NCBI RefSeq assembly: GCF_947500125.1
Contig: NZ_CANMRA010000006.1
Location: 124,001-188,000, forward strand
Reading direction: 5' to 3'
Length of the DNA: 64,000 nt
From: an uncultured Kocuria sp.
GTDB taxonomy: Bacteria; Actinomycetota; Actinomycetes; Actinomycetales; Micrococcaceae
The notes under the pieces were generated by a model. That model worked only from the letters and a program-made list of their open reading frames with translations. It had not been told where the DNA came from and ran no database searches. Below, in pieces: positions 1 to 38,200 of this stretch; position 1 is the first letter of the stretch; each line of letters opens with the position of its first letter. A program made the translations under genes and the position numbers.

Positions 1-1766
1 TCGATGCGGCCGAGCGCGTCGGCGTCGCCGTGCACGGCGGCCCGCATGAGGGGCTCGAACAGGACCACGTCGGCGCCGTGCCCGGTGCCGCCGGCCCCGA
101 AGAACGCCGCCGCGCCGTTGGTGCCGCCGAAGCGCAGCGCCTGGGAGAGCGTGACGTCGCCGAGCAGGAACGCCAGGTAGCGCAGCACGTCCTCCGGGGT
201 CTTCAGCAGCTCGGCGAGCACGCGCGCGGACCGGTCCTCCGGGGCGCCGTGCAGATCCGCGACCAGCACCGCGGAGCGCTCGACGACGACGCCCCCCGCC
301 ATCGTGCGACTGCGCACGCACAGCAATGGCGTGATCCGTGAGGCGTCGACTCGCGTCCACGTCAGCTCCTCACTCAGCGTCCGCTCCTGGGCGGGCAACG
401 AGAGCAGGCGGACGGTCGTCGTGACGCCCTCCGGCTCCTCGACCGCGCCGCTGAGGGAGGCGTCCAGCATGTACGTGCCCTCGGCGTCCTCGGTGCAGTC
501 GAGGCGCAGCCCCGCCCCGGCGAGCGCAGCATGGAAGCGCTCGAGCTCCCGCTCGGCTCGCTGCCGGGCGACCGCGGCCTCGTCCGGCGGCTTCGTGTCG
601 TACGGCTGGCAAACCGCGGACAGGCCGAGGTTGCCGTGCGCGCCGGTCCAGATCTCGTCGATGAGCCCCTTGCGGCCCGTCAGCCGGACGCCGAACTCGG
701 CGTTGCGGCCGAAGCCGCCGCGGGTGGCGTTGGCCGAGCCTGAGTACAGGGTGGTGCTGTGGCCCCGTTCCACGAGGTAGATCTTGGCGTGCAGTCCGGC
801 CAGCCGGCCGGCCGCCGTGGGTCCTGCGCTGCGCTCCCCAGCCTCGTCCTCGGTGCCGTCCAGGTCCGCCGAGGGGTTTAGGACGAAGGTCTCGGCTCGG
901 TCTCCCAGGTCGCCGAAAACGTCAAGGCTCTCGGCGCGGGAGAGCAGCCGGACCTCCCCGCACCGGGCGACGAGGTCAGTGAGCGAGCTGTCGAGGAAGG
1001 GGGAGATCACCAGGGCACGAGTGGCGCGGTCCTGGGCGTGGACGCCGCCGGTCACGTCGTCCCACAAGGACCGGGAGCGCACCGTGCGCTCGCCCGTGCG
1101 GGCCACCCACGTCGCGTCCTTGAACCCGGCCGGCGCTGAGAAGGACACCCCGCGCAGCGAATCGATCAGATCAGTGAGCTCCGCTGTCCGTTTGTTGCTC
1201 AGGCCGGGGGCCACGGCCCAGGAGGCGGTGGTGGCCAGGTAGTCCGCCAGCTCTCCGCCGGGCAGCAGGTTCTCCCGTGGGTCGTCGGACTCGTCGAGGA
1301 CGAGGATGGTGTCCCAGGAGTTGTCGAAGGTGAGGTTGCGGCTGAGCACGAGCACCCGGTGGACACACTTCTCCTCGGCGTCGCGGAAGCGCAGCACCCA
1401 GACCTTGGGGTGGAACACGCCCCCGGTCTCGGGCACGGCCACCTGAACGAGGGAGTCCTCCAGGTAGGTCAGCATCGGCCGGTACTTGGCCGGCACCGAG
1501 ATGCCGCCCGCCTGCACGAACACGGTCAGCCGGTCCGCGTAGCGGCGCACCGACTCCAGCAGCGCCACGGGATCGACGCCCTGGTCCGGGTCCCCGGGCC
1601 CTTCCTCGCTCCCCCGCTGGTCGATCGCGGCGAAGGTCAGCGGTACGAGCAGCAGGGCCACGAGGTCCAGGGAGTAGGTCGTGGTGACGGCGCGGTCCAG
1701 CTCCATCCCCGGCGGCGGCTCGAGCGCGTCGGTGAGGAGCTTGCGGTCCTCGGGTCCCAGACTCAC
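1..1766 (-). CDS. Phospholipase-D-fold protein, DrmC-like (3' end outside the window)
   Basis: A 588-codon open frame reads leftward off the edge of the window, so the C-terminus is missing. Two PLD half-motifs are visible: HPK at residues 119-121 followed by SRNLTFDNS (142-150), and HAK at 326-328 followed by GSAN (343-346) and Glu357. This is the two-HKD layout of PLD-superfamily nucleases, which cut phosphodiester bonds through a covalent histidine intermediate. The second Lys-Ser/Asn-Glu set is the better conserved. The start is a GTG overlapping the stop of the DUF6361 gene by 4 nt, implying translational coupling. PLD proteins (DrmC) are an accessory component of DISARM, and a DISARM-like operon lies 4.7 kb away on the other strand. 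The nuclease role is family-based; the link to DISARM is inference. Confidence 0.85.
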   Translation of the reverse strand, partial: MSLGPEDRKLLTDALEPPPGMELDRAVTTTYSLDLVALLLVPLTFAAIDQRGSEEGPGDPDQGVDPVALLESVRRYADRLTVFVQAGGISVPAKYRPMLTYLEDSLVQVAVPETGGVFHPKVWVLRFRDAEEKCVHRVLVLSRNLTFDNSWDTILVLDESDDPRENLLPGGELADYLATTASWAVAPGLSNKRTAELTDLIDSLRGVSFSAPAGFKDATWVARTGERTVRSRSLWDDVTGGVHAQDRATRALVISPFLDSSLTDLVARCGEVRLLSRAESLDVFGDLGDRAETFVLNPSADLDGTEDEAGERSAGPTAAGRLAGLHAKIYLVERGHSTTLYSGSANATRGGFGRNAEFGVRLTGRKGLIDEIWTGAHGNLGLSAVCQPYDTKPPDEAAVARQRAERELERFHAALAGAGLRLDCTEDAEGTYMLDASLSGAVEEPEGVTTTVRLLSLPAQERTLSEELTWTRVDASRITPLLCVRSRTMAGGVVVERSAVLVADLHGAPEDRSARVLAELLKTPEDVLRYLAFLLGDVTLSQALRFGGTNGAAAFFGAGGTGHGADVVLFEPLMRAAVHGDADALGRI

Positions 1767-2974
1767 GCGGGGACCTCCACGAGGGCGCCGGCCTGGATGT
1801 CGTCGAGAATCCGCCGGGCGGTCGGCCAGTTGTACTGCAACTGTGCCAGCGCCGACGCGCCGCTCCAGGCGTTGAGCGCGCTCGGGTTCACGAGCCGGGC
1901 GCGCGGGCCCTTGAGCGACCGCTCGCGGTGGGCGATGAGCTCGCGGGCGCCGTCGTCGTCGACGATCCCCGACCGGGAGACGACGAGCTCGTGCCACCGG
2001 TCCACGAACGTTCGCGTGGGGCGGCTGATGCGGGCACCTGCTCCGGAGAGCAGTCGCCAGAAGGCATCGAGGCTCCAGTTCCGCATACCGTCCGGGCCAT
2101 CGACGGCGGCGCGCCACTCGACGAGATCCGCGCGGTACCGCTCGGTGCGCTCCGCGTCCTCAGAAGCCTCGGCAAGCTGGAGGTTGTAAAGCAGCGCGGC
2201 TCCGCGGTTGAGCACGGAGAACGCCCGGCCGTGCTCGACCCACTCGGCCATCGCGGCCGGGAACTCACCGGCCCGCGGGTGCTCCCAGACGAAGTCCTTG
2301 GCGGTCCCGACCTCGACCTCCTCGCGCAGGAACCAGGCGTAGAGACTCTCCGGGTGCGAGGTCATGATCCGCCCGCGCAGGTAGTCCGCCTCGGCAGGGG
2401 TGAGGGCGAAGCTCGTTCCCTGCGGCCAGTCCCGCGGACGGAGGAGGAGCGCGTGGGGATCGATGCCGGGGCGAAGCATCGAAGGCCCGTGCTCGTCGTC
2501 GGCCTCGCGCGGCGCCCGGCGGGTCTCGGCGGTGTGGGCGACCCCGTCCCGGAGCAGGCCGGCGATCGAGGCACGGCTGGTGGTGATGCCGTAGCTGCGC
2601 AGCGCCGCCCAATACATGGCCGAGGGCATCCGCCGCAGATCGGCCCGGGCCTGGCCGCCGATCAGCCCCTGCCGGTCGTCGCTGTCGGCCAGCACGTCGA
2701 TGAGCCGGACCTCGCCCCGGCGCAGTTCCGCGACGGCCGTGTCGGCGTCCCTGGCCGCCATGGCGTCGGCGACGAGCCACGGGATGAACAGCAGGTACCG
2801 GGCTCGGGTGTGCAGGACCGAGGAGCCAGGGAACAGCTGTTGGGTGATGGCGTCGCGGATGCTGCCGACGCCGAGCTCGTCGACGGTGGTCCTGTCCCGG
2901 AACGCGTCGAGGACGGCCATGGCCTGGTCGCGCTGGCGGGAATCGGTGTCGAGCCAGGAGAGGAAGGAGGTCAT
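1763..2974 (-). CDS. DUF6361 family protein
   Basis: A 403-aa protein beginning MTSFLSWLD. The conserved N-terminal block with DELGVGSIRD (residues about 35-44), LFPGSSVLHTRARYLLF and an IPWLV motif is, to my recollection, characteristic of DUF6361, a family of unknown biochemistry found next to helicases and PLD nucleases in defence islands. No catalytic motif that I recognise is visible and there are no membrane segments. The ATG overlaps the stop of the upstream GIY-YIG gene (ATGA), and its own stop overlaps the GTG of the PLD gene, so the three are probably co-translated. A role as structural or recognition partner of the PLD protein is inference. Confidence 0.8.
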   Translation of the reverse strand: MTSFLSWLDTDSRQRDQAMAVLDAFRDRTTVDELGVGSIRDAITQQLFPGSSVLHTRARYLLFIPWLVADAMAARDADTAVAELRRGEVRLIDVLADSDDRQGLIGGQARADLRRMPSAMYWAALRSYGITTSRASIAGLLRDGVAHTAETRRAPREADDEHGPSMLRPGIDPHALLLRPRDWPQGTSFALTPAEADYLRGRIMTSHPESLYAWFLREEVEVGTAKDFVWEHPRAGEFPAAMAEWVEHGRAFSVLNRGAALLYNLQLAEASEDAERTERYRADLVEWRAAVDGPDGMRNWSLDAFWRLLSGAGARISRPTRTFVDRWHELVVSRSGIVDDDGARELIAHRERSLKGPRARLVNPSALNAWSGASALAQLQYNWPTARRILDDIQAGALVEVPA

Positions 2975-3936
2975 GAGTGGCGCTCCTCGGACTGCATCCG
3001 CAGAAAAATGTCGTCAGCCAAGGGCATGCAGTGGTAGCGGCCCATCATGGACGTTCCTTTCCGGAGCAGACCTATTGCCGTGGTTCTTGCTGCGTCCCTG
3101 ACCAGTGGGTGGTGAACGGCGAACTCCAGGAATGACGCGTCGGAGTGGATGCTCTGCACTTCCCCCACAGTTCGATAGGACGTCTCGACCACGTCGAGAG
3201 TGGACGGCAGACGAAGACCTGGAGCCACATTGAGAAATCCGTCGAGATAGACCTTGCCGTTCTCGGTCGTCTCGCCGATCACCAGCGTCTCGACGTTGTT
3301 GACGGTGACCGCCGCGATCCGCCGCCAAGTGGAAGTGCGACCAGTGCTCGGCATGGCGCTGACGCACCAATACTTCTTCTCCGTCATATCCGGCGCGGGG
3401 ATCACCTGCCGGATGTATGCGGCGAGGACATTGAGGATGACTTCGTAGTGCGGATGGGCTGCCAGTGTCGCGAAGTTCTTGCCCGAGCGGTCGCGGCCCT
3501 CCGCCGCCATGCACCGGTCGGTGAAATCGGCATGCGGGTCGACACCGTCGAGCCACTCCTCCTGCTGCGGCCGAGTGATCAGCAGGTCCACGGCGGCGTC
3601 ACCCATGGGAAGGCCGACCAGTGCAGAGTTCCGCAGCTTCACGGCCTCGCGCTCCTTGGACTGAACGACCTGGCGTTCCGTCGTGTCGAGGTGCTCAGCC
3701 GATACGGGCGCGAAATCGAGCGCGACGATCGGATAGGCCCACGACCGCACGTGTGTGCGGAAGCGTGTGAGGACGTTGCGGGCCTGCCCCACGTACTCGT
3801 AGCCGTCGGCGAAGTGCAGGACGTAGATCCCGCACCGAGAGGCGCCGGTGGAGAACACATTGCTCACCGCGGACAGGGAGTCGATGCCACGGACGTCGAT
3901 GCGGGTCATGGGCAGGGTGGAAGCCACCCGTGTCAC
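2971..3936 (-). CDS. GIY-YIG nuclease-like protein
   Basis: A 321-aa protein. Residues 36-60 carry GIY (36-38), EYVGQ (47-51) and Arg60, which match the GIY, YIG-like and catalytic-Arg positions of the GIY-YIG endonuclease core. The remaining 240 residues are unrecognised. The family makes metal-dependent DNA cuts; here it may supply nuclease or end-recognition activity to the cassette. The annotated GTG (3936) has no clear Shine-Dalgarno; ATG at 3909 (residue 10) is an alternative start. It lies 31 nt after the Mrr gene and overlaps the DUF6361 start by 4 nt. The catalytic Glu normally found further downstream could not be placed with confidence, so activity is not certain. Confidence 0.7.
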   Translation of the reverse strand: MTRVASTLPMTRIDVRGIDSLSAVSNVFSTGASRCGIYVLHFADGYEYVGQARNVLTRFRTHVRSWAYPIVALDFAPVSAEHLDTTERQVVQSKEREAVKLRNSALVGLPMGDAAVDLLITRPQQEEWLDGVDPHADFTDRCMAAEGRDRSGKNFATLAAHPHYEVILNVLAAYIRQVIPAPDMTEKKYWCVSAMPSTGRTSTWRRIAAVTVNNVETLVIGETTENGKVYLDGFLNVAPGLRLPSTLDVVETSYRTVGEVQSIHSDASFLEFAVHHPLVRDAARTTAIGLLRKGTSMMGRYHCMPLADDIFLRMQSEERHS

Positions 3937-3967
3937 GGCTCGGTCGGATTCGTCCGATGTTCCACTC

Positions 3968-4897
3968 TCACATGCCCTCGAAGAAGTCCTCGTCGACGTC
4001 GACGATCTCGTAGGTCTGCTTCACCTGGACGCCCACCTTGTACTTCAGCATCAGCTTCACCAGCCGTGCGCCGTCGATGAGGATGGGCCGGGACGGGACC
4101 ATCCCGGCATACTCTTTCGCCCCCTGGGTGAAGGTGCTCGTGGTGATGAAGATGCCTTTCGACGCACCGCGGCCGTGCAGAGCACCGACGAACGCCTGGA
4201 TGGCCTCACGGCCGACGTTGTTGCCGTCGGCATAGCGCTTGGCCTGGACGTAGATCTGGTCCAAGCCCAGCGGGTCCTGGTCGATCACCCCGTCCACACC
4301 GCCGTCGCCGCTGCCGCCGATCCTCTGACCGCGGGCCTCCGCGCCGCCGTATCCCATCTTGAGAAGCACGCGCACGACGGCCTCCTCGAAGAAGTCGGGA
4401 TGACTGTCTCTCAATCTCATGAGGAGCTCGTCCCCGACCTCTGTATTGAGCTGGTCGACGCCCTGGTCGATCTTTTCCAACGGATCGAGAGCCTCCACGT
4501 CCCGCACGACTACGGTTCCTGCATCTTCAGTGGACTCGGTTCGCCAGTACGGCATGAAGAAAGTGTTCGCGGTGCTGTAGTTCATCCCCTCGGGATGTTC
4601 CACGAGCCATGCCCGCCCTGCGTCATTGATGGCATAGTGCGCCCGCTTGGGGCGGTCGATCAGGCCGGCCTTGGAGAGGTGGCTCAACGTCCAGCCCATC
4701 CTCTGCGCGTAGCGCAGGCCACCGGTGTTGAGACGCTCGGCTCGGGCTGCGTCACTCAGCTGGGCTATTTCCGCGGCACGGTCGATGAGCTCTCTGCGGT
4801 GGTAGGTCTCACCGTCGCTGAGCACCTCAAGCATCGGCTTCAGGAACTCGGGCCAGGTTGGCACCTCAGTCTGCACAGAGTGGCCATTCATATCCAC
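3968..4897 (-). CDS. mrr: Mrr-type restriction endonuclease
   Basis: A 309-aa protein with the standard two-part Mrr layout. The N-terminal winged-helix domain (residues about 14-100, with the GWTLSHLSKAGLI helix) is linked to a PD-(D/E)XK domain (about 165-300). The catalytic Asp202 lies in GGVDG and the QAK triad at 218-220, followed by IFITTSTFT. Mrr enzymes are type IV restriction nucleases that attack modified DNA, including some N6-adenine-methylated sequences. The GTG at 4897 has GAGGGG seven bases upstream, better than the internal ATGs at 4891 and 4887. It is the first gene of a leftward cassette with the GIY-YIG, DUF6361 and PLD genes. Coexistence with a large adenine methyltransferase 4.5 kb away implies its specificity must not include that mark. 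Confidence 0.9.
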   Translation of the reverse strand: MDMNGHSVQTEVPTWPEFLKPMLEVLSDGETYHRRELIDRAAEIAQLSDAARAERLNTGGLRYAQRMGWTLSHLSKAGLIDRPKRAHYAINDAGRAWLVEHPEGMNYSTANTFFMPYWRTESTEDAGTVVVRDVEALDPLEKIDQGVDQLNTEVGDELLMRLRDSHPDFFEEAVVRVLLKMGYGGAEARGQRIGGSGDGGVDGVIDQDPLGLDQIYVQAKRYADGNNVGREAIQAFVGALHGRGASKGIFITTSTFTQGAKEYAGMVPSRPILIDGARLVKLMLKYKVGVQVKQTYEIVDVDEDFFEGM

Positions 4898-5308
4898 GGT
4901 GTTTCCCCTCTATCCCTCCGAAAACTCTCGGTGTGAGAACGTATCGACCGGCGTTGCCTCACGGCGACTCTCTCACGCCTGACGCCGAGCGGCGTGGCGA
5001 CACCTGGCCATCAGCGGCTTGCTTGACCGCCGAGTCCTCAAGACGCGACGCTGGAAATGCCCCGAGGATCCAGCACATCAGTTCGAGACAGTTCCCCGAT
5101 CCGCGAACTTCTGCATCGAGATGAGAATTGTCCGTCTCCATCCACGCTGAGCGGATGAGGTCTTGTCCCCCGAATGCGGGACTCCGTGGCTCGTGCGGGG
5201 GCCTCGGCGCTGCCGTTGGGTCGAATAAGTCAAAGCACGGTCCGGACGAATACCTCGTTGTCGTGTCACGTTGAGCGCAATCGACACAGATGCTTAAGAC
5301 TCGAACTC
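4898..5308. other. Divergent intergenic region between mrr and the lipoprotein gene
   Basis: A 411-nt stretch between two divergently transcribed genes, so it must hold both promoters. It is visibly less GC-rich than the genes around it. Short overlapping ORFs occur on both strands (e.g. 5078-5287 minus) but none has a ribosome site or recognisable product. I could not assign a -35/-10 pair with confidence. Confidence 0.4.
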
Positions 5309-6355: not shown

Positions 6356-6364
6356 TGCCTGACC

Positions 6365-6399
6365 TGGTGCAGGCCCCGGTGTCGCACGGTCTTGCACCA
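6365..6399. promoter_or_regulatory. Inverted repeat TGGTGCA-21-TGCACCA
   Basis: A 7-bp perfect inverted repeat with a 21-nt spacer lies directly after the lipoprotein stop and about 80 nt ahead of the helicase operon. It could be a weak transcription terminator or an operator for the 16.5-kb operon; its seven pairs make chance occurrence possible. Confidence 0.3.
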
Positions 6400-6479
6400 A
6401 TCTCCGATGCCATGAGACTGAACAGTAGGTTTCTTCCCTAGACTGCTGATGGCCGCACCCCCCACCCCTGGAGATCGTC

Positions 6480-9371
6480 ATGCCCGACCAAGTGCTGGAC
6501 ATCGCCCCCGGCGCGATCGTCGTCGTCCGGGACGAGCAGTGGCTGGTCTCCTCGGTGGAGCAGACGGCGGACGGCGACCTGCTGACGGTTCGGGGCGTGA
6601 GCGAGCTGGTCGAGGGCACAACCGCGCAGTTCTACACGAGCATCGACACAGTGACGACGACGGACCCGGCGAACACCCGCGTGGTCGCCGATGAGAGCTC
6701 GCACTACGTCCGGTCCCGCCTGTGGCTGGAGTCCACGCTGCGCAAGACCTCCCTGCCGATCTCGGACCCGCGCCCCGTGATGGCCCCCCAGGCGCTGGCG
6801 GACCCGCTGTCCTATCAGCGCGAGGCCGTCGTGAAGGCCCTGGAGCCGGACCGGCTGCGCAGCCGTCTCCTGATTGCGGACGCCGTGGGACTGGGCAAGA
6901 CGCTCGAGATCGGCATGATCCTCTCCGAGCTGATGCGCCGCGGCCGGGGACGCCGCATCCTCATCGTCACGCCACGCCACGTGCTGGAGCAGATGCAGCA
7001 CGAGATGTGGACGCGCTTCGCCATCCCGTTCGTGCGCCTGGACTCGGAGGGCGTCCAGCAGGTCAAGCAGAAGCTGCCGGCCACCCGGAACCCGTTCACG
7101 TACTTCGAGAAGGTCATCATCTCGATCGACACCCTCAAGCAGGACCGGTTCGTCCACGACCTGCGGCGGCACCACTGGGACGCGGTGGTCATCGACGAGT
7201 CGCACAACGTGACGAACCAGTCCACGCAGAACAACCAGCTAGCCCACACGCTGGCCCCGAACACGGAGGCCTTGATCCTGGCCTCGGCCACCCCGCACAA
7301 CGGCCGCAACGAGTCCTTCGCGCAGCTGCTGACCTTGTTGGAGCCCACGAGCGTGGGCGCGGACGGCAGCATCAGCACGGCCGCGGTGGGCAACCTCATG
7401 ATCCGCCGCCACCGCTACTCGGAGTCGGTCAAGAACGAGGTCGGCGACAAGTGGGCCGAGCGGAAGCCGCCCCGGCACGTCCTCGCGGAGCCCAGCCCGG
7501 AGGAACTGGAGGTCGCGCACGAGATCGCTGCCACCTGGACGCACCCGAAGGGCTCCGCCCCGGTCACGGGCGCGGGCTCCCGCCTCTTCCCGTGGACCTT
7601 GGCCAAGGCGTTCCTCTCCTCCCCGGTGGCCCTGGCGGAGACCATCGCCGCCCGACTGAACACCCTCGAGGGCAACGTCGCCGCCGGTGCCGAGCGCGAG
7701 GCCCTCGTCCGTCTCCGCGAGTTCAACGCCGCCTGTCTGTCCCAGGACGGCGGCACCCCGCGCTCCGGCAAGTACAACGAACTGCTGAACCAGTTGCGGG
7801 AGAAGAAGATCGGCCCGCGCTCCCCCGAGCGCGTGGTGGTCTTCGCCGAGCGCGTGCCGACCCTGCGCTGGCTGCGCGACAACCTCCTGCGGGACCTGAA
7901 GCTCAAGGACGACCAGGTCCGCATCCTCCACGGCGCGCTCACCGACGTGGAGCAGCAGGAAATCGTGGAGTCCTTCAAGCAGTCCACGAGCCCCATCCGC
8001 GTCCTGGTCACCGGCGACGTGGCCTCCGAGGGCGTGAACCTCCACCAGCAGTGCCACGAGCTGATCCACTTCGACATCCCGTGGTCGCTGATCCGCATCG
8101 AGCAGCGCAACGGCCGCATCGACCGCTACGGGCAGGAGCACCCGCCGCAGATCACCACCCTGCTCCTCGACCTGCAGGGCGTGGAGGGCTTCACGGGCGA
8201 CGTGCGCGTGCTGACCCGTCTGATCGAGCGCGAGCGCGAGGCGCACGAGAAGCTCGGGGACGCCGCCTCACTGATGGGCGAGTACTCGGGCACCGCGGAG
8301 GAGGCCGCAATCATCGAGGTGCTGCGCGGCGCCAAGGACTTTGACGAGGCGGTCCCGGCCCCGGAGCAGGCGCTCGCGCAGCAGGAGGACTGGCTCTCCC
8401 TCCTGCTCCGAGCCGACACCCAGAAGGACACGCCGAAGAACGACGACGCCCTCCGGGCCGCGCCCTCCGGCGGGCGCCCAGCGCCGGTGCGCACCGCACT
8501 CTTCGGCTCGGACGTGGACTACCTGCTGGCCGGGCTGACGGAGCTCTACGGCGAGCCGAGCCGGGAGCGTGCCGGCGGCGGTGTGGGTCTGCGCATCGAG
8601 CACAACAACGCGGGACGGATCCAGCTGGTCTCCTTCGAGCCGAGCGCGGACCTGCGCCAGCGCCTGGCCGCGCTGCCCCAGTCCTACCTCAAGGAGCGGC
8701 GGGTGCTGGACCGGATGCAGCTGACCCCGGACCGTGCGACGGCGGAGGCCCGCCTGAGCGCGGCGCTCAACGACACGAACGGCAGCTCCTGGCCGGACAC
8801 CCACTTCCTCTCGCCCATGCACCCGGTGCTGGACTGGGTGGCCGACCGGTCGCTGGCCCACCTGGGCCGGGAGGAGATCTTCGCGGTGCAGGGCGACGTC
8901 GCCGTCCCGACCGTCGTGGTGCAAGGCATCGTCACGAACCGCCGCGGCCAGAACATCGCGGTGGCGCACCTGACCGTGCAGTTCATGGGCGCGGTCCCCG
9001 TGCCGCAGGCCTACGACGACCCGGCGGACCTGTTCGGCGACCTGGGCCTGGGGCCGGAAACCGTCGGTGTGCCGGTGCAGGACCCGCAGCAGTACGGGCA
9101 GCTGATCCCGCAGGTCGTCGAAACGGCCCAGTCCTTCGTCGACGAGATGATGGCGCACAGCGCCCGGCAGCAGGCGGAGGAGCGGGCACAGGCGTGGGTG
9201 GACCGCATGGACCGGTGGGAGCACGGCGCCGAGGGGGTGGCGGCCCAGACGCAGCTGTTCCGCCGCTCCCGCTCCGCGGTGGAGGCGGAGCGCCGCCTGG
9301 CCCGGGAGATGCTCCCCGACCGGACCTACGTACGTCCACTGCTCGTCGTCGTGCCCACAGGAGGGAAGTGA
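6480..9371 (+). CDS. drmD: SNF2-type helicase, DISARM DrmD-like
   Basis: A 963-aa superfamily-2 ATPase. The N-terminal 60 residues (VVRDEQW, ELVEGTTAQFYTSID) match the small beta-rich region that precedes the motor in DrmD/RapA-like proteins. The Walker A motif is ADAVGLGKTLEIG (residues about 137-149), the Walker B box is VIDESH (about 237-242), SATPHNG is motif III, and helicase lobe 2 carries VTGDVASEGVNLHQ and the RIEQRNGRIDRYGQ arginine-finger motif. The C-terminal third (about 650-963) is unassigned and ends in helical sequence. GGAG sits 9 nt before the ATG. It is the first gene of the four-gene operon and is followed after 3 nt by the methyltransferase, the gene order of class-1 DISARM. 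The motor role is established for the family; the DISARM name is inferred from motifs and order. Confidence 0.85.
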   Translation: MPDQVLDIAPGAIVVVRDEQWLVSSVEQTADGDLLTVRGVSELVEGTTAQFYTSIDTVTTTDPANTRVVADESSHYVRSRLWLESTLRKTSLPISDPRPVMAPQALADPLSYQREAVVKALEPDRLRSRLLIADAVGLGKTLEIGMILSELMRRGRGRRILIVTPRHVLEQMQHEMWTRFAIPFVRLDSEGVQQVKQKLPATRNPFTYFEKVIISIDTLKQDRFVHDLRRHHWDAVVIDESHNVTNQSTQNNQLAHTLAPNTEALILASATPHNGRNESFAQLLTLLEPTSVGADGSISTAAVGNLMIRRHRYSESVKNEVGDKWAERKPPRHVLAEPSPEELEVAHEIAATWTHPKGSAPVTGAGSRLFPWTLAKAFLSSPVALAETIAARLNTLEGNVAAGAEREALVRLREFNAACLSQDGGTPRSGKYNELLNQLREKKIGPRSPERVVVFAERVPTLRWLRDNLLRDLKLKDDQVRILHGALTDVEQQEIVESFKQSTSPIRVLVTGDVASEGVNLHQQCHELIHFDIPWSLIRIEQRNGRIDRYGQEHPPQITTLLLDLQGVEGFTGDVRVLTRLIEREREAHEKLGDAASLMGEYSGTAEEAAIIEVLRGAKDFDEAVPAPEQALAQQEDWLSLLLRADTQKDTPKNDDALRAAPSGGRPAPVRTALFGSDVDYLLAGLTELYGEPSRERAGGGVGLRIEHNNAGRIQLVSFEPSADLRQRLAALPQSYLKERRVLDRMQLTPDRATAEARLSAALNDTNGSSWPDTHFLSPMHPVLDWVADRSLAHLGREEIFAVQGDVAVPTVVVQGIVTNRRGQNIAVAHLTVQFMGAVPVPQAYDDPADLFGDLGLGPETVGVPVQDPQQYGQLIPQVVETAQSFVDEMMAHSARQQAEERAQAWVDRMDRWEHGAEGVAAQTQLFRRSRSAVEAERRLAREMLPDRTYVRPLLVVVPTGGK

Positions 9372-9374
9372 GCC

Positions 9375-14141: not shown

Positions 14142-17100
14142 GCGAGCTGCTGCCCACCCTGCAGGCGGAAGCCACCCAGTCCGCGCTGGTCGAGTACATC
14201 ACCACGGCGATCGAGTTCTCGGACCAGTACGCCCGGGACGCCTTCAGCTCCTTCCTGCAGTACCCCGAGCACGGGATCTTCCGGGGCCCGTTCCTGCGCA
14301 CGCGCCTGCCGTTCGCGGCGGACGAGAGCGACCCTTCGTTGGCGGTGTTGCCGGAATGGTTCACGCCGTACGCGCACCAGGCGGCGGCGTTCCGGCGGCT
14401 GACCACCTCGCCGGAGGTCACTGGGGACCGGGATCGGGCCGGGCTGCGGATCCCGGAGCCCACAATTGTCACGACCGGCACGGGCTCCGGCAAGACCGAG
14501 TCCTTCCTCTACTCGCTGCTGGACTACGCGGTGCGGGCCCGGAAGGCGGGTGTGCACGGGATCAAGGCGATCATCCTCTACCCCATGAACGCCCTGGCCA
14601 ACGACCAGGCGGGACGCCTGGCACGGATGATCCACGAGGACCCCGCCCTGAAGGGCGTGACGGCCGCGCTGTACACCGGGGAGCACTCCGGGGCACCGCG
14701 CACGGCGATGAGCGCCGACGGGCTCATCGAGGACCGGCACACCATCCGTTCCTCCGTGCCGGACATCGTGCTCACCAACTACAAGATGCTGGACCAGCTG
14801 CTGCTGCGGAAGCCCGACCGGCCGCTGTGGGAGCACTCCGCCGAGTCGCTGCGCTACCTGGTGCTGGACGAGTTCCACACCTACAACGGCGCCCAGGGCA
14901 CGGACGTCGCCCTGCTGATCCGGCGCCTACGGCTGCTCCTGGAGCGGCTGGCCCCGCAGCGCACGCACCTGGTCCCCGTGGCCACTTCCGCCACGCTGGG
15001 CGACGACCGGGACATCGCCCCCGTCGCCGAGTTCGCCACGACGATCTTCGGCGTGGACTTCGGCACGGACGCCGTGGTCACCGAACGGCGCGTGGGGCAG
15101 GAGACGCTGCAGGAGCAGGCCCGCGCCCGTCTGGACCTCGCCGGCCTGGAGGCCGAGGAGCGGCCGACCGCCGGGCAGCTGCAGCCCGTCCTCGATTTGC
15201 TCCCCGGCAGCAACGACGGTCTTCTGCCGGACTCGAGCGAACTGACGTCCGCCGTCGTCGACGTCCTGTGGACCGGCGCGGGCGGCGAGCGCGTGTCGGA
15301 GCTCCGGGGGACCGATGACGCCGCTGTCCGGGACCTGTTCCTCGCCCACCCCCTCGTGGGGCGGCTCCTGGAGCGCACCGCTACGGCGACGACCACGGCG
15401 GAGCTGGCCCAGGCACTGGTCCCCCACCTGGACGCGCTCGGCACCGGGGGACGGCTCGTCGAAGCGCTGTGCGCCGCGCTGTCCCATGTGCGGTCGCGGG
15501 CCGAGCGCAACAGCTTCCCGAACGTCGAGGCCCACCTGTGGACCCGCGAAGTCTCCCGCGTGGACCGGGCGGCCTCGCCCGTGCCGGCCTTCGCGTGGAG
15601 CGACGACCGCACCACGCACGACGGCAGCTTCCTGCCGGCGATCTACTGCCGCCACTGCGGCCGCTCCGGTTGGGGCCTGGCGCTGACCGGCATGGACGAC
15701 CTGATCGTCAAGCCCCAGCGCATCCGTCAAGAGCACGTCCGGCGCACCGGGCGCTTCCGCACCCTCATCTCCGGGACCGGCGCGGACCCGGGCGACGACG
15801 ACCGCCTGCGCTACCTGGACCCCGAGCGGCGGAGCCTGGAGAGCCGCCCGCCGTCAGACGAGACCGCCGACGTCGACAGCCTCCCCGTGCTCATGCACGT
15901 GGGGATCGAGGCGGAGGGACACTCCAAGGACGACACCTGCCCGGCGTGCCAGGAGAAGGATGGCATCCGGTTCGTCGGCGCCAGCACCGCGACGCTGCTG
16001 TCCGTGGCGCTGTCCAGCTTGTTCGGCACGGCAGGGCTGGACCCAAACGAGAAGAAGTCGCTGGTCTTCACCGACTCCGTCCAGGACGCCGCCCACCGGG
16101 CAGGCTTCGTGGAGGCGCGCTCCCACTCGCTGGCCCTGCGCTCGGCGATCGAGTCCTCGCTGGACGACCGGCCGCGGCCGGTGCGGGAGATCGCCGAGCG
16201 CATGATGGCCGCCGCCGGCTCCCCTGAGGACCGGTACCGGCTGCTGCACCCCTCGATCGCGGAGAACACCTCGGTGCGCGGGTACTGGGACGACACCCAG
16301 CCCGCCCGGCAGCGGCGGCGAGCGCAGGAAAACGTCGCCACGCGGCTCGAGTTCGACCTGGAGCTGGAGGCCGGCCTGGTCGGCTCCTACGGGCGCACCC
16401 TGGCCACCACGGGCACCGCGGCCGCCTCCGTGGACGTCTCGGCGGAGGACGCGCTCGCGGTCGGACAGCGGGTGCTGGAGCGGATCGCCCAGCAGATCAG
16501 CTCCGAGACCGTGAAGAGCGGCCCGGCGGGCGACCATCGCACCGAGCTGTGGGTCCGCGGGGTGCTCGAGCGCCTGCGGGCCGACGGGGCGATCGCGCAC
16601 GAGTGGCTGGTGCCCTACCGCAGGAAGGGCGGGCTGCGGTACCAGATCTGGGGCGGCCGCCGACCCAAGGACGTCATGCCGGCCTTTCCTCCCGCGCGAC
16701 GGTCCCCTCGCTTCCCAACCACGGGCCGGCTAAACGCCCGGAGCCTTTTCACCGATCCGAGCAACCGGCAGAGCTGGTTCGTGGACTGGACCGCACGGTG
16801 CCTGGGCACGGACTTCCGCACCGCCGGCCACCTCATGAAACCGCTGTTCACGGCGCTGACCGAGGCCGGTCTCACGGACACCGTCTCGGTGTCCGAGCAC
16901 GGCCGCACCACCGCCGAGAGCTACGGGTTGCGGCCAGAGCGTGTGGTGATGGCGCGGGTCCCGGAACCGGCGCGCGCCCTGCGCTGCTCCGCCTGCGGGG
17001 AGACCGTCACGGGCGTTCCGACAACGCTGGAGGCCTTCACCGGTGGCCCGTGCACGGCCTACCGCTGCAAGGGCGGCCTGCGCTGGGCCGAGCTGCGGAA

Positions 17101-20100
17101 GAGCTACTACCGCAGCCTCTACACCGGGGACATGCGCCGGGTGATCGCCCGCGAACACACCTCCCTGCTGCAGACGGACACACGCCTCGAGTACGAGAAC
17201 GCCTTCAAGGCGAGCGAGTCCACGCCGGGCGCCCCCAACGTCCTGGTGGCCACCCCCACGCTGGAGATGGGCATCGACATCGGCGATCTCTCGACGGTCG
17301 TCCTGGCCTCCATCCCGGACACCGTGGCCTCCTACCTCCAGCGCGTGGGACGCGCCGGGCGCCTGACCGGCAACTCCCTGGACCTGGCCTTCATGTCCAC
17401 GCGCGGCCGGGGCTCGGCGTACATCGAGCCCGAGTTCATGGTCAACGGCTCGGTCCGTCCTCCGGCGGCCTATCTCTCCGCGGAGGAGATCCTCCACCGC
17501 CAGTACATCGCCTTCCTCATGGACCGCATGGCCGGCGACGACGGGATGCCCGTGCCCGCCCGCGGCGCCTCCGTCATGCGCTCGAGCACCCCCGGGACCT
17601 TCCTGGGCGAGATGCTCGCCGACGCACAGGCGCATGCGCAGGAGCGGCTCGACGAGTTCCTCTCCGCCTTCACGATCAGCGAGGACCCCCGCCGGGGCAT
17701 CACCCGGGACGCCGCCGAAACCCTGCGCGGCTGGGCCACCTGGCCAGCGGACGGCCCCAGCGGACTCGAGTCCGCCGTCGGCAAGGCCGTCCAACGGTGG
17801 TTGCACGAGAAGGACGCCCTGCGCCACCGGCGCCAGAAGCTCACCGAGTTGCTCAAGGACATCGCCGAGGGCCGGCTCGTCATCACCGCCGACGACGACT
17901 CCACGGCCCAACAGCTCCGCGGCCAGCAGGAACTGCTCGACGCCCAGGAGCGCAAGCTCGGGGAGGTCGAGGACCCCGAGGCCCGCGCGCGGGAGGAGAA
18001 GCGCCTCGCCGGCGGCCAGATGCGGCTGCGCGCCGAGGAGTCCCGGATGAGCCACGAGCACTGGATCGGCGTGCTCGAGCGCTTCGGGCTGCTGCCGAAC
18101 TTCACGCTTCTCGACGACGCCGTGAGCCTGGACGTCACCCTGATCTACCAGGACGACGACAACCAGTGGCAGCACATCCCGGCCGACTACGAGCGCTCGG
18201 GCTTCACCGCTCTCACCGAGCTCGCGCCCGGCAACCACTTCTACGCCGGCGGCCACGAGCTCACGATCGACGCCGTGGACCTCGGCACCGACGGCGCCGG
18301 CGTGGGCCACCGGGCCTTCTGCCCCGACTGCGGGCACAGCCAGGACATCTCCGCCGCGGAGCGGCCGACCGTCTGCCCCCGGTGCGGGCACCCGGGCATC
18401 GCCGACGAGGGGCAGCACCTGCGCGTCGTCGAACTGACCAAGGTGTACTCAACGATGGAGCTGCACCGGGCCAAGATCGGCGACTCCTCCGAGGACCGCA
18501 CCAGCCTGCACTTCGAGACCCTGACCGTGCCCGACTTCACCGCCGCCGAGACCCGCGCCCGCTGGTCGATCGAGGGCACCGGCGTGGGCACCGCCTTCCA
18601 CCGCGGCACCCGGCTGACCCGGCTCAACGTGGGCCGTCCCCGGGAGGGAGCGCGCGAAGCCGTGCTCGGCGGGCAGAAGCAGCGCATCGGTGGTTTCACG
18701 ATCTGCGCCGAGTGCGGTCACCTGGACGAGGACCTGCAGACCAACACGCCGCAGGAGCACCAGGCCTGGTGCTCCCAGCGCCGAGCCGAGAACCCCGAGG
18801 CCGTGTCCGCCGTGCTCTCCCGGGAGCTCGTCACCGAGACCGTGCTGATCAGCCTGCCGCCCTCCATCGGCGAGGACAGCACCGGACGCTCGCTATGGAG
18901 CTTCTACGCCGCCCTAATGCTGGGGCTGCGGGAACGCTTCGGCGGGGAGATCGGCCATCTGCAGATGGAGGTCGTGCCGGACACCGCCCGCCGCAACGCC
19001 GCCTCCCTGCTGCTGTTCGACTCCGTGCCCGGCGGCACCGGCTACCTGGCGGAGCTGGCCTCACCCCAGTCGCTGTGGAGCCTGTTCCGCGCAGCCCTCG
19101 AGCGACTGGTCGACTGCCCCTGCCGGAACGAGGAGCGGTCCGCGTGCTTCCGGTGCCTCATGCCGCACGTGCGGGCCAGCCACCGGGAGAGCCTCGGCCG
19201 GGCCCGCGCCGTCGAGATTCTCACCACGGTGCTCGACTCGTCCGCGCCGTCGGAGGAGATGACCTGGCGGGTCGCGGAGGGGGACGCTCCCGTGGAGGAC
19301 GACTTCGAGTCGCACCTGGAGTCACGCTTCCGCCGCGTCTTCCGCGCCGCCGTGGCGGAGATCCCCGGTGCTCAGGTCGTGGACACCGTCGGCGACGGCG
19401 GCGCGGGCTTCTCCGCCGTCGTCGGGGACGTCAAGTACTCCTACACCCCGCAGGTCACCCTGGAGCACACCCAGCCCGACGCCGTGCTCAGCTGGCCCGG
19501 CCAGCACGGCATCCGCGGTGTCGCGATCTACCTGGACGGCAAGGCCTTCCATGCCACCGCTCAGCACAACCGGGTCGGCGACGACGCCCGGAAACGGGCC
19601 GGGCTCCGCGAGCAGGGCTATCTGGTCTTCGCAGTGACGGACCGGGATCTGACCGCGTTCGAGGCCCAGCGCCGGGGGGACGCCGCCGAGGACAGCGTGC
19701 TCGACGGCCTCCTGACCCCCCGATATGCCGACACGGTGATCGCGCAGGGGGTGATGGACACCGAGGACCTGGACTACGTCTGCGCGAATCCCGTCGCGCA
19801 GCTGCTGACGCTCATCGAGAGCCCAGCGCGAAACCCGCTCAAGCGGCAGCAGATGGTCTCCCAGTTCCTGAATCTGCTCCTCTTCGACGGGACGCCCCGG
19901 CAGGTCAGCACCGAGGACCTCGGACGCCAGACGCTCGGCGTCCTGGACGCCCCGGAGGGCGGGCCGCGGCCCGACGTTCCGGCGGGACCGGCCGCACCGG
20001 GATTCGTCCGCCGCCTCGGCCCGCTGGTCCTCCTGGGCACGGTCGAGGCACCCGTCAACCGGCTGGCGATCGCGCTGGACGACCGGGAGGAGGCGCTGCG

Positions 20101-20677
20101 CTCCGAGGAGTTCGACCTCGCCTGGCGGAGATGGCTCGCCCTCGCCAACCTGCGCCAGTCCCTGGAACCGGCCTCGACCACGCACATCGAGACGCGCAGC
20201 TCCCTGTCGGAGTGGATCGACGAGCACGCGGTCGAACGGGACTCGTGGGTGGACCTCCTGGTCCAGGCGGGGCAGCAGCCGGTCGGCGGACCGGACCGTC
20301 GTTCCACCGGCTCTCCTGGCTCTCCGAAACCCTCGGGCGCGGTGGATGTCGTCCCCGTGCCGAACACCGTCCGGTTGAGCTCCGAGTGGACGGACCTCAT
20401 GGACGACGCCCTCACGCCCGAGGAGCGGCAGGTGCTCGAGATCGCCGGACGAGAGGGCATGCCCCTGCCCGAGGTCGGCGAGGAGATCGCCGGCATCCCG
20501 GTGGACCTGGCGTGGCCGGGCCTCGGCATCGCCTGGCTCAGCGAGGCGGCCAATGTCGAGGAGTTCGCCCGCGAAGCCCCCGGAACGTGGACGGTGCTCG
20601 GACCCGATGTCCGGAGCGCCCAGCATGTCCTCCAGCAGCTGCCGGGGACCGACGAGCAAGGAATGGTGAACCCGTGA
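14138..20677 (+). CDS. Giant DEAD/DEAH helicase with DUF1998-type region (DrmA-DrmB-like fusion) and nuclease-like C-terminus
   Basis: A 2179-aa protein. Lobe 1 of the motor has TGTGSGKTES (residues about 112-121), the DEFH box (about 244-247) and SATLG. Lobe 2 has ATPTLEMGIDIGD and QRVGRAGR (about 1035-1075). Zinc-type CxxC pairs occur at about 502, 600, 950, 1394/1413 and 1525, and CPC-CFRC at about 1661-1671. LLLFDSVPGGTGYL (about 1624-1637) is typical of DUF1998/MrfA-like C-terminal domains. In canonical DISARM, DrmA (helicase) and DrmB (DUF1998) are separate; here both appear in one chain, also reminiscent of DruE of Druantia. Residues about 1776-1850 contain PD, DGK and a downstream DARKRAGL helix, resembling PD-(D/E)XK/DUF559-type nucleases. 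The final 300 residues are unassigned. Its stop overlaps the next start (GTGA). Confidence 0.85.
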   Translation: MSELLPTLQAEATQSALVEYITTAIEFSDQYARDAFSSFLQYPEHGIFRGPFLRTRLPFAADESDPSLAVLPEWFTPYAHQAAAFRRLTTSPEVTGDRDRAGLRIPEPTIVTTGTGSGKTESFLYSLLDYAVRARKAGVHGIKAIILYPMNALANDQAGRLARMIHEDPALKGVTAALYTGEHSGAPRTAMSADGLIEDRHTIRSSVPDIVLTNYKMLDQLLLRKPDRPLWEHSAESLRYLVLDEFHTYNGAQGTDVALLIRRLRLLLERLAPQRTHLVPVATSATLGDDRDIAPVAEFATTIFGVDFGTDAVVTERRVGQETLQEQARARLDLAGLEAEERPTAGQLQPVLDLLPGSNDGLLPDSSELTSAVVDVLWTGAGGERVSELRGTDDAAVRDLFLAHPLVGRLLERTATATTTAELAQALVPHLDALGTGGRLVEALCAALSHVRSRAERNSFPNVEAHLWTREVSRVDRAASPVPAFAWSDDRTTHDGSFLPAIYCRHCGRSGWGLALTGMDDLIVKPQRIRQEHVRRTGRFRTLISGTGADPGDDDRLRYLDPERRSLESRPPSDETADVDSLPVLMHVGIEAEGHSKDDTCPACQEKDGIRFVGASTATLLSVALSSLFGTAGLDPNEKKSLVFTDSVQDAAHRAGFVEARSHSLALRSAIESSLDDRPRPVREIAERMMAAAGSPEDRYRLLHPSIAENTSVRGYWDDTQPARQRRRAQENVATRLEFDLELEAGLVGSYGRTLATTGTAAASVDVSAEDALAVGQRVLERIAQQISSETVKSGPAGDHRTELWVRGVLERLRADGAIAHEWLVPYRRKGGLRYQIWGGRRPKDVMPAFPPARRSPRFPTTGRLNARSLFTDPSNRQSWFVDWTARCLGTDFRTAGHLMKPLFTALTEAGLTDTVSVSEHGRTTAESYGLRPERVVMARVPEPARALRCSACGETVTGVPTTLEAFTGGPCTAYRCKGGLRWAELRKSYYRSLYTGDMRRVIAREHTSLLQTDTRLEYENAFKASESTPGAPNVLVATPTLEMGIDIGDLSTVVLASIPDTVASYLQRVGRAGRLTGNSLDLAFMSTRGRGSAYIEPEFMVNGSVRPPAAYLSAEEILHRQYIAFLMDRMAGDDGMPVPARGASVMRSSTPGTFLGEMLADAQAHAQERLDEFLSAFTISEDPRRGITRDAAETLRGWATWPADGPSGLESAVGKAVQRWLHEKDALRHRRQKLTELLKDIAEGRLVITADDDSTAQQLRGQQELLDAQERKLGEVEDPEARAREEKRLAGGQMRLRAEESRMSHEHWIGVLERFGLLPNFTLLDDAVSLDVTLIYQDDDNQWQHIPADYERSGFTALTELAPGNHFYAGGHELTIDAVDLGTDGAGVGHRAFCPDCGHSQDISAAERPTVCPRCGHPGIADEGQHLRVVELTKVYSTMELHRAKIGDSSEDRTSLHFETLTVPDFTAAETRARWSIEGTGVGTAFHRGTRLTRLNVGRPREGAREAVLGGQKQRIGGFTICAECGHLDEDLQTNTPQEHQAWCSQRRAENPEAVSAVLSRELVTETVLISLPPSIGEDSTGRSLWSFYAALMLGLRERFGGEIGHLQMEVVPDTARRNAASLLLFDSVPGGTGYLAELASPQSLWSLFRAALERLVDCPCRNEERSACFRCLMPHVRASHRESLGRARAVEILTTVLDSSAPSEEMTWRVAEGDAPVEDDFESHLESRFRRVFRAAVAEIPGAQVVDTVGDGGAGFSAVVGDVKYSYTPQVTLEHTQPDAVLSWPGQHGIRGVAIYLDGKAFHATAQHNRVGDDARKRAGLREQGYLVFAVTDRDLTAFEAQRRGDAAEDSVLDGLLTPRYADTVIAQGVMDTEDLDYVCANPVAQLLTLIESPARNPLKRQQMVSQFLNLLLFDGTPRQVSTEDLGRQTLGVLDAPEGGPRPDVPAGPAAPGFVRRLGPLVLLGTVEAPVNRLAIALDDREEALRSEEFDLAWRRWLALANLRQSLEPASTTHIETRSSLSEWIDEHAVERDSWVDLLVQAGQQPVGGPDRRSTGSPGSPKPSGAVDVVPVPNTVRLSSEWTDLMDDALTPEERQVLEIAGREGMPLPEVGEEIAGIPVDLAWPGLGIAWLSEAANVEEFAREAPGTWTVLGPDVRSAQHVLQQLPGTDEQGMVNP

Positions 20678-23034
20678 CAGCCCAGCCCAAGCAGCTCATC
20701 ATGGACCGAGGCTTCCCGTCGAGCTACGACCGGTCGATCGCCGGCAAGGTCACCGCGACCATCGAGAAGCTCTTCAAGGACACCAGCACCAACGGTCTGC
20801 ACGTCGAGCCGATCCAGAACTGCGCCGACAAGCGGGTGCGCACCGCGCGGGTGGACGACTTCCACCGCATGGTGCTCTTCGATCTGGGCGCCTGGATGCT
20901 GCTCTACGGCGTCTACCCGCACGATCGCGCCTACGTCGTCGCCGCCAAGGCCTACGCCCGGGTGAACCCCACGAGCGGTGCGGCCGAGATCCGCCAGGCC
21001 GAGGGCTCCGACGCGAACGCCAAGGACCGGTACACCGACTCGGAGCTCAAGGCACTCGTGGAGGCCCGCGCCGCCGACCTGCTCGCCGAGCGGCAGAGCG
21101 CCGACCTCAAGCCGCCGATGCCGGCGGCCGAGGAAGCCCGCCCGGATCCCTCGGTCCTGAGCGTCAATCCGCTGGCCGGCTACACGGCAGAGCAACTGAC
21201 CGACGAGCTCGGCATCGACGGCCCCGTGGCCGAGTACGCGGTGGGCGCCCCGTCCGAGGAGGAGCTGCTCACCGCCCTGGGGCGCGTCGGCGGCTGGCAG
21301 GGCGATGCCCTGATGGACCTGGCCAGCGGTACGTCGCTGGACGAGGTGCGCGCAACGTACTCGATCGCTCAGGGCAGCGAGCCGACCGGCGGCACGGAGA
21401 TCGGCATGCCGTCCGGGACCGAGGCAGTGGTCCGCGCCGCCACCGCCGAGCGGGCCGCTTCCCAGTTCCACCTCATCGAGGACGACGAGGCCCTCGCGCG
21501 GGCGCTGGCCAGTGGGAACTTCGACGCATGGCGTCTGTTCCTGCACCCCGACCAGCAGGAGTACGTGGACAAGGAGACCTCCGGCCCGTTCCGGCTCTCC
21601 GGCGGCGCCGGCACCGGCAAGACCGTGGTCCTGGTCCATCGCGCAGTGCGTCTGGCTCGCCAGAACCCCCAGGCACGGATCCTCGTCGTGACCTTCACCC
21701 GCAACCTCGTGGAGATGATCCGCGAGCAGGTCCGATCCCTGGGGCCGGACGTGCGGATGGCCGCAGGTCTCGGACAGCCCGGCATCAGCGTGCTCACCCT
21801 GGACCAAGTGGCCCACCGCGTGCTGGAGGATGCCGCCGGTTCCGAACGGCTTCCCTCCGCCATGAAGTCGGTGCTCGGATGGGGCATCCGGCGCATGCCC
21901 GACTACCGCAGCGCCGGCGCCTACGGAGCCAGTCCGTGGGAGGAGGCGATCGACGCAGCCGGCGCCGAGCTGCCCGAGAACCTCCGCAGCGTCCACTTCT
22001 TCCAGTCGGAGTACCAGGAGATCGTCCTGCCGGGGCAGATCACCGAAGAGATCGGCTACCTGCGGGCTCCGCGCCCGGGACGGGGGACCCGCCTCGGCCG
22101 TAACCAGCGCCGCGCCGTCTGGCAGGCCATCTCCCAGTACCGGGACGATGGTCTGGCCGCCCAGGCAATCGACTGGGACGAGGCCGCCGCCGTAGCCGCT
22201 GCGCTGCTTACCGGTGACTCCGGCGCGCCCCTGGCCGATCACGTGCTCATCGACGAGGGTCAGGACTTCACCCCCACGCGGTGGAAGCTGGCCCGGGCCG
22301 TCGTGGCCGAGAGACCGGATGACCTGTTCATCGCCGAAGACTCGAACCAGCGCATCTACGGCAATCGCATCGTGCTCGGGCACTACGGGATCAAGATCGT
22401 GGGCCGCTCCCGGCGCCTGCGGCTGAACTACCGCACCACGGAGCAGAACCTGCAGCTCGCCCTGAAAGTGCTCGCCGGGGGCTCCTATGATCTCGACGAG
22501 ACCGAAGGCGACCACGAGGTGCACGCTACGGAGCGCGACCGCGACCGGTACATTTCTAGCCGCAGCGGCCCTCGGCCGCTCCTACTGCCAGCCGAGGACC
22601 TGGGGCAGGAGTACGACCGGGTGGCCGAGCTGCTCAAGACCTGGACCACCGAAGTGGAGGACAGCGGGCTGAAGGCCGGCACGCTGGGTGTCCTTACCCG
22701 CACCAAGAAGGAGCGCGACGCCTTCGTACGAGCGATGGGCGAGCGCGGCGTGGCTGTCGCGCCCGTGGACACCCGCGACGCCCCCAAGGGGACGCCAGCC
22801 GTCATGACACTGCACCGGGCCAAGGGCACCGAGTTCTCCCGCGTGGTGCTCTTCGGCGTGAGCGAGGGGTCAATTCCCAAGTTTTTCGCCGGTAGCACCT
22901 ATGACGACCAGGCCCGGGAGCAGAGTAGTCTGCGGGAGCGCTCACTGCTGTACGTAGGCGCCACGCGGGCACGGGACATACTGGCGATCTCGTGGTGCAA
23001 GAAGGCGAGCCCTTACCTGCCGTCCATTGACTGA
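20674..23034 (+). CDS. UvrD/Rep-like superfamily-1 helicase with RelE-like N-terminus
   Basis: A 786-aa protein; GTG start overlapping the upstream TGA. Residues 1-95 (SIAGKVTATIEKLFKD, VRTARVDDFHRMVLFD) fit the RelE/ParE-like fold found at the N-terminus of many defence-island UvrD proteins. An Ala/Glu-rich linker follows, then the helicase: GGAGTGKT (about 310-317), VLIDEGQDF, EDSNQRIYGNR, LNYRTTEQ, TLHRAKGTEF and YVGATRARD, i.e. motifs I-VI of SF1A. These enzymes translocate 3'-5' on single-stranded DNA. A longer frame extends upstream to 16,549 but is the out-of-phase shadow of the giant helicase. As last gene of the operon it probably works with the other two motors, unwinding or clearing DNA. 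UvrD-like genes are not core DISARM components, so its part in the system is inference. Confidence 0.88.
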   Translation: MTAQPKQLIMDRGFPSSYDRSIAGKVTATIEKLFKDTSTNGLHVEPIQNCADKRVRTARVDDFHRMVLFDLGAWMLLYGVYPHDRAYVVAAKAYARVNPTSGAAEIRQAEGSDANAKDRYTDSELKALVEARAADLLAERQSADLKPPMPAAEEARPDPSVLSVNPLAGYTAEQLTDELGIDGPVAEYAVGAPSEEELLTALGRVGGWQGDALMDLASGTSLDEVRATYSIAQGSEPTGGTEIGMPSGTEAVVRAATAERAASQFHLIEDDEALARALASGNFDAWRLFLHPDQQEYVDKETSGPFRLSGGAGTGKTVVLVHRAVRLARQNPQARILVVTFTRNLVEMIREQVRSLGPDVRMAAGLGQPGISVLTLDQVAHRVLEDAAGSERLPSAMKSVLGWGIRRMPDYRSAGAYGASPWEEAIDAAGAELPENLRSVHFFQSEYQEIVLPGQITEEIGYLRAPRPGRGTRLGRNQRRAVWQAISQYRDDGLAAQAIDWDEAAAVAAALLTGDSGAPLADHVLIDEGQDFTPTRWKLARAVVAERPDDLFIAEDSNQRIYGNRIVLGHYGIKIVGRSRRLRLNYRTTEQNLQLALKVLAGGSYDLDETEGDHEVHATERDRDRYISSRSGPRPLLLPAEDLGQEYDRVAELLKTWTTEVEDSGLKAGTLGVLTRTKKERDAFVRAMGERGVAVAPVDTRDAPKGTPAVMTLHRAKGTEFSRVVLFGVSEGSIPKFFAGSTYDDQAREQSSLRERSLLYVGATRARDILAISWCKKASPYLPSID

Positions 23035-35614: not shown

Positions 35615-38200
<2,586 letters not shown>

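Follow-up and report, generated by a model that had tools for sequence, protein, structure and literature searches.

Two tightly packed operons lie head to head in the genome of an uncultured Kocuria sp., raising the question of whether they encode one defence system or two. A first-pass annotation of this DNA had read them as a single DISARM-like system, in which a plus-strand operon of helicase and methylase genes is served by a minus-strand cassette of Mrr, GIY-YIG, DUF6361 and PLD genes. We examined the locus in a window of 64,000 nt (contig C6:124001-188000), compared its proteins with characterised systems and surveyed their relatives in other genomes. The locus very probably consists of two independent, known anti-phage systems placed head to head in an actinobacterial defence-island hotspot: ARMADA type II, and Azaca with two accessory nucleases.

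Identity of the two operons

The named genes, their strands, their order and their tight junctions were all as first annotated (Table 1). The plus operon spans 6480-23034. ArmA and ArmB are 3 nt apart, ArmB and ArmC overlap by 4 nt, and ArmC and ArmD also overlap by 4 nt if the GTG start of ArmD is used, which aligns residue 1 with residue 1 of E. coli ArmD. ArmB additionally matched the PADLOC profile REase_MTase_IIG PDLC03611 (E = 0, 1249.6 bits), and the MZB domain of ArmC was detected at 3.9e-11.

Table 1. Genes of the two operons and of the interval between them. Positions are those of the window unless a contig is named.
Gene and product	Position	Strand	Size and supporting matches
ZacC, large helicase, outside the window	contig C6:120698 to ~123.9 kb	-	PADLOC ZacC E = 0, 1050 bits
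ZacB, PLD-family nuclease	1..1763, on to contig C6:123898	-	PADLOC ZacB 1.1e-150
ZacA, DUF6361 protein	1763..2974	-	403 aa; Pfam DUF6361 1.6e-46; PADLOC ZacA 1e-124
GIY-YIG-like nuclease	2971..3936	-	321 aa; Pfam GIY-YIG E = 0.0074, below cut-off
Mrr, type IV restriction endonuclease	3968..4897	-	309 aa; Mrr_cat 1.1e-35, Mrr_N 8.1e-24; PADLOC mREase_IV 7e-76
Predicted lipoprotein	about 5309-6355	+	signal peptide and lipobox, by eye from the translation
ArmA, BrxHII/RapA-like SNF2 helicase	6480..9371	+	963 aa; SNF2-rel_dom 1.1e-15
ArmB, PglX-like/Eco57I-class DNA methyltransferase	9375..14141	+	1588 aa; Eco57I 9.5e-15
ArmC, YprA-family DEAD/DEAH helicase with fused MZB (DUF1998)	14138..20677	+	2179 aa; DEAD, Helicase_C, MZB
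ArmD, GajB-like UvrD helicase	20674..23034	+	786 aa; UvrD-helicase 6.8e-22

ARMADA type II was described in a 2025 preprint by Bell et al. from E. coli ATCC 8739 and NCTC 12900, with the strict gene order ArmA (BrxHII-like), ArmB (PglX-like), ArmC (YprA-like) and ArmD (GajB-like); ArmC was described with a Vsr end and ArmD with a RelE-like N-terminus (PMC12458937). Judged by sequence, the plus operon holds the full ARMADA type II set, ArmA-ArmB-ArmC-ArmD, which bears out the remark in the first-pass annotation that related arrays had already been described. In BLASTP comparisons with the ATCC 8739 ARMADA tested in that study (PMC12458937), all four window proteins aligned across most of their length: ArmA with 34.5% identity (residues 7-835, 444 bits), ArmB with 34.3% (residues 176-1552, 675 bits), ArmC with 30.6% (residues 39-1838, 645 bits) and ArmD with 30% (residues 1-782, 276 bits). 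Against the 645 bits to E. coli ArmC, window ArmC scored only 115 bits to E. coli DruE.

The catalytic residues support the same assignment. Bell et al. mutated eight motif residues, of which six mutations abolished and two reduced protection (PMC12458937); the residue numbers are given for NCTC 12900, and in ATCC 8739 they point to the motifs that would be expected. All eight residues are identical in the window, in E. coli and in every aligned relative. The equivalents of ArmA K136/D236 are kept in 12 of 12 aligned rows, the ArmB GxG and NPPW residues in 13 of 13, the mutated ArmC residues in all 15, and the equivalents of ArmD K266/D454 in 16 of 16. ArmC also has a C-terminal PD..DGxxH..KR motif block, which recurs in E. 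coli ArmC and in 13 relatives; Pfam gave no Vsr match for ArmC, and the Vsr-like C-terminal nuclease is assigned by homology to E. coli ArmC. In a 19-row tree, which is small and midpoint-rooted with several long branches and a DrmA row whose placement is meaningless, window ArmC clustered with the ArmC rows and not with the two DruE included. The N-terminus of ArmD, putatively RelE-like, aligned with 14 homologues including E. coli ArmD. It had no match among PDB sequences and no relatives in the viral contigs scanned, and its single-sequence structure model (pLDDT 49) was too poor for a structure search. The PDB sequence searches otherwise returned a single chance-level match (E = 0.56).

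The plus operon is, as had been inferred, a DISARM relative with a YprA helicase and a UvrD partner, and the DrmA- and DrmB-like parts are indeed fused in one protein, ArmC. That description was right in kind, yet this arrangement had already been described as ARMADA II. If the locus were a genuine class 1 DISARM in which DrmA and DrmB are fused, this would account for the matches of ArmA and ArmB to DrmD and DrmMI profiles and for the PLD protein nearby, but such a reading is highly improbable. ArmA reached 335.9 bits against the NCBIfam DISARM_DrmD model (cut-off 610), and in PADLOC ArmC matched DruE models (9.8e-83) far better than DrmA (6.9e-18). The profile searches (DrmA, DrmC, DrmD, DrmMI and DruE models) thus upheld the suspected kinship with DrmD and DrmMI and placed ArmC far nearer to DruE than to DrmA. 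By contrast, a real DISARM in a related genome (G003) scored 1297 bits to DrmD, 1652 to DrmMI and 985 to DrmA, and was assigned from these three. Class 1 DISARM has separate DrmA and DrmB genes, and here the helicase and MZB parts are both in ArmC. We rejected DISARM with a fused DrmAB because the DrmD match is below the cut-off and ArmC is closer to the DruE models. The PLD gene was likewise rejected as DrmC (2.3e-4 only in PADLOC), because it is ZacB and is encoded on the other strand from the plus operon. Full-length DruE and Dru partners, as seen in the Druantia II of another congener (G014; DruE2 1415 bits, DruF2 559 bits), are not seen at the plus operon. To specialists familiar with the 2025 YprA preprint, the plus operon itself would come as no surprise.

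By its profile matches, the minus operon is Azaca (ZacA-ZacB-ZacC), with Mrr and a GIY-YIG-like gene ahead of ZacA. We take the PADLOC Zac gene names to denote the three genes of Azaca, which was reportedly first described by Millman et al. in 2022. The Azaca name, its PLD domain and the helicase ZacC are given in two papers (PMC10952713, PMC12278908). DUF6361 and PLD, which had been counted as nuclease partners of the plus operon, are therefore ZacA and ZacB of a different system. The cassette extends past the window edge, because ZacC adjoins just left of the window; its profile match falls within L005:16698-20000. Directly after ZacC, a 230-aa gene (L005:15912-16604, minus strand) matches the candidate defence profile PDC-S29 (1.3e-11).

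The GIY-YIG-like gene overlaps ZacA by 4 nt and holds the same position in the related genome G009. Its product and four other sequences retain the positions that are catalytic in GIY-YIG nucleases (GxY, YxG, R, E and N). Scans of genome contigs and viral contigs returned no relatives of this protein and PHROGs returned nothing for it, and its single-sequence model (pLDDT 40) was too poor for a structure search. Around three distant homologues (G620, G599 and G711), the DNA examined contained no Zac genes, two of them being on contigs shorter than 7 kb. An Mrr relative occurred in 6 of 25 other Azaca loci in one set, and in 1 of 80 Azaca loci of named genomes (34% identity). Because of the latter count, the link between Mrr and Azaca is not general; in agreement, the Azaca of G003 has ZacABC with neither Mrr nor the GIY-YIG gene. 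Mrr and the GIY-YIG-like gene are most likely accessory nuclease genes in a tightly packed Azaca operon.

Between the operons are 1.6 kb (Mrr start 4897 to ArmA start 6480), which hold the gene of a predicted lipoprotein. Its product gave only a weak PsbP_2 match (0.0034) and no match in the ARMADA neighbourhoods examined, and a relative (39-46%) is found beside ZacC in G003. We considered this gene as a component common to both systems and rejected it; it is probably not part of either operon.

Separate occurrence of ARMADA and Azaca

If the eight genes (nine with ZacC) formed a single DISARM-like system, with the minus cassette supplying nucleases for the plus operon, the two operons should occur together. 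That they stand head to head, 1.6 kb apart, fits such a reading. However, among 99 relatives ArmC was present in 12 and ZacA in 6, with the window's genome counted in both. Ten of the 11 other ArmC genomes had no ZacA (E <= 1e-10), and the eleventh (G018), the sole other relative with both, had a diverged ZacA on a different contig. Conversely, the closest ZacA relatives, in G003 (93%) and G009 (89%), were in genomes without ArmC at E <= 1e-20, and G009 carries a contiguous Mrr-GIYYIG-ZacA-ZacB-ZacC block. The plus operon itself held together: ArmD adjoins ArmC in 11 of 11 other ArmC relatives, and ArmA is upstream of ArmC wherever the contig is long enough. ZacA and ZacB were absent from the ArmC flanks of these relatives, of which the G005, G025 and G037 contigs end almost at ArmC. 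The proposal of one eight-gene set thus failed, with the operon found without the cassette and the cassette without the operon. As a separate observation, the ArmC gene of G018 (L009) has one in-frame TGA and is otherwise full length.

We then took the wider samples, using ArmA at E <= 1e-100 as the ARMADA marker, which may include ARMADA type I. In a sample of 396 genomes of the order, ZacA was found in 26 genomes, ArmA in 36 and both in 4, the window's own included. With the own genome left out, the counts were 25, 35 and 3, where ~2.2 would be expected (Fisher P = 0.48). An excess of genomes with both was therefore not seen, the presence of Azaca and of ARMADA being uncorrelated. In all three further genomes with both, ZacA and ArmA were 29-40 kb apart (outer ends) and the ArmABCD blocks were complete; wide DNA was examined for 20 plus G105 and G283 of the 26 Azaca genomes, with G324, G333 and G432 left out.

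The named-genome set comprised 80 Azaca loci, the 80 kept of 96 relatives, of which 51 had at least 19 kb of DNA. ARMADA genes were found within 10 kb of Azaca in tandem in Cellulomonas sp. APG4 (L146), convergent in Paractinoplanes polyasparticus (L180), and divergent, as in the window, in Agrococcus pavilionensis (L194) and Pseudoclavibacter terrae (L200). Weaker helicase matches in L152, L179, L182, L196 and L212 were not counted as ARMADA. Whole genomes were searched for ArmA and PglZ in 36 of the 51 (titles without MAG), a choice that omits seven isolates whose loci had less DNA (L159, L163, L171, L189, L212, L216 and L219). ArmA was present in five of the 36 (L146, L180, L194, L200 and Demequina, which is common to the order sample and the named set, the two sets partly overlapping), and by contig coordinates it was on the Azaca contig in all five. 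As a control, PglZ (BREX) was present in one of the 36 genomes, less than 10 kb from ZacA (L155).

Throughout our samples, every genome with both systems except G018 has them close together, and the divergent placement recurs in L194 and L200; both points would suit a single system. Against this, their presence is uncorrelated, their relative orientation differs between L146 and L180, and E. coli ArmA-D cloned alone still protects (PMC12458937). We rejected the eight-gene system because ARMADA and Azaca occur independently, and give it very little credence. Two systems, ARMADA II and Azaca, appear from these sequence surveys to be independent in presence and to have their location in common, like defence islands in general, although one control system is thin evidence for the latter comparison. 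Their proximity wherever both occur may reflect more than common islands. In a literature search pairing Azaca/Zac with ARMADA, DISARM, DUF6361, Mrr and GIY-YIG, none of the titles or abstract openings described the pairing, which is a weak negative given the poor coverage of subscription papers; the main text of the ARMADA preprint mentions none of Azaca, Mrr and GIY (PMC12458937).

Two further loci came up in these surveys. Downstream of Azaca in Actinotalea lenta, a 90-aa stretch (L140:16304-16573) is 57% like ArmA; it is likely an ARMADA remnant, in a genome without ArmA at E <= 1e-100. On a plasmid of Tsukamurella tyrosinosolvens (L239), the annotation splits the ArmC-like helicase of an ARMADA-like block into two overlapping genes, and this block adjoins a separate DUF1998 gene and further helicases.

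A hotspot of seemingly exchangeable systems and possible cooperation

Five congeners carry relatives, at 90-94%, of the aminotransferase that flanks the island on the right (window 39678-40877), and the left-flank gene (L005:11123-12583) has a relative at 88% in G003 and at 66% in G021. Both flanks are thus found in G003, and for G009 and G014 the right flank alone was found. Beside the aminotransferase are Azaca and ARMADA in the window's genome, Azaca and DISARM in G003, Mrr-GIYYIG-Azaca with BREX (PglX, BrxC, PglZ, BrxD and BrxHI) in G009, and ARMADA divergent from Druantia II in G014. A single hotspot with a fixed flanking gene thus holds ARMADA, Azaca, DISARM, BREX and Druantia II in varying pairs. 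Judged by this gene content, the hotspot systems behave like exchangeable modules and the two operons travel separately. Since the pairs vary within one hotspot, such genomes are natural strain sets for testing cooperating systems.

Other genes of the island were also recorded. A NACHT-type ATPase gene (window 23272-26019) lies in a stretch of 48% G+C (24001-26000) with surroundings at ~70%; it had no PADLOC match and was found in none of the ARMADA or Azaca loci searched. A TIR-domain protein (window 31991-33592, minus strand; TIR_2 2.6e-6) had no PADLOC match. The TerB-like protein (26577-27728) and the flavin monooxygenase-like protein (35699-38200) have counterparts at 94-97% in the G014 hotspot, which has these two in common with the window and differs in defence content.

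In E. coli, ARMADA requires all four genes, mutations in its ATPase and methylase motifs impair it, and it defends directly, without abortive infection (PMC12458937). DruE, a relative of ArmC, is reported to load on 3' single-stranded DNA (PMC13192584). By analogy, ArmC might load on single-stranded or replicating phage DNA, translocate, and cut it with its C-terminal Vsr-like nuclease; ArmB would methylate or read DNA, sparing the host, and ArmA and ArmD would remodel or unwind DNA, the order of these steps being conjectural. From their domains, ZacC may motor along invading DNA and deliver the PLD nuclease ZacB, with ZacA as a possible adaptor. Mrr could contribute cleavage of modified DNA, with the GIY-YIG protein as another nuclease.

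The two systems might function separately and still cooperate, with Azaca in the partner role that Druantia III has in E. coli. In E. coli ATCC 8739, ARMADA and Druantia were shown to act in synergy against some phages (PMC12458937), the G014 hotspot holds ARMADA and Druantia II in divergent orientation, and ARMADA and Azaca are co-located in genomes with both. However, genomes with both are not enriched, Azaca is equally well paired with DISARM or BREX in the hotspot, and generic clustering of defence genes explains the proximity, PglZ too being close to ZacA in L155. On balance, we regard cooperation as unlikely. Its more specific form, in which Azaca with Mrr and the GIY-YIG-like gene is a five-gene, multi-nuclease Azaca variant that acts as the synergistic partner of ARMADA II in actinobacteria, in the place of Druantia (type III in E. 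coli, type II in G014), is slightly more doubtful still.

Comparison with known systems

The locus illustrates a defence island well and is not a new kind of system; its ARMADA II is a further, well-preserved case from actinobacteria in which the tested catalytic residues are intact. Like class 1 DISARM, the plus operon has a central YprA helicase, and it shares relatives of DrmD (the SNF2 helicase) and of DrmMI (the PglX-like methylase). It differs from class 1 DISARM in that a single protein with a nuclease-like end combines the DrmA and DrmB parts, there is an additional UvrD helicase, and the adjacent PLD gene is ZacB and not DrmC. The likeness to Druantia is that DruE3 is the best PADLOC profile of ArmC; however, ArmC matches DruE in partial stretches only, stands apart from the two DruE in the small tree, and has gene neighbours that are not Druantia partners. 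The minus operon resembles Azaca in having ZacA-ZacB-ZacC in order, in one operon and with strong profile matches, and differs from it in that Mrr and the GIY-YIG-like gene head the same operon, as seen elsewhere only in G009 among the loci examined. The plus operon agrees with ARMADA II in its four genes, their order, the tested catalytic residues, the fused MZB and the Vsr-like C-terminal region, and the ArmD N-terminus is homologous to that of E. coli ArmD. It differs in its proteins, which are 30-35% identical to those of E. coli, in its actinobacterial host, and in its neighbour, which is Azaca here and Druantia III with Zorya II in E. coli.
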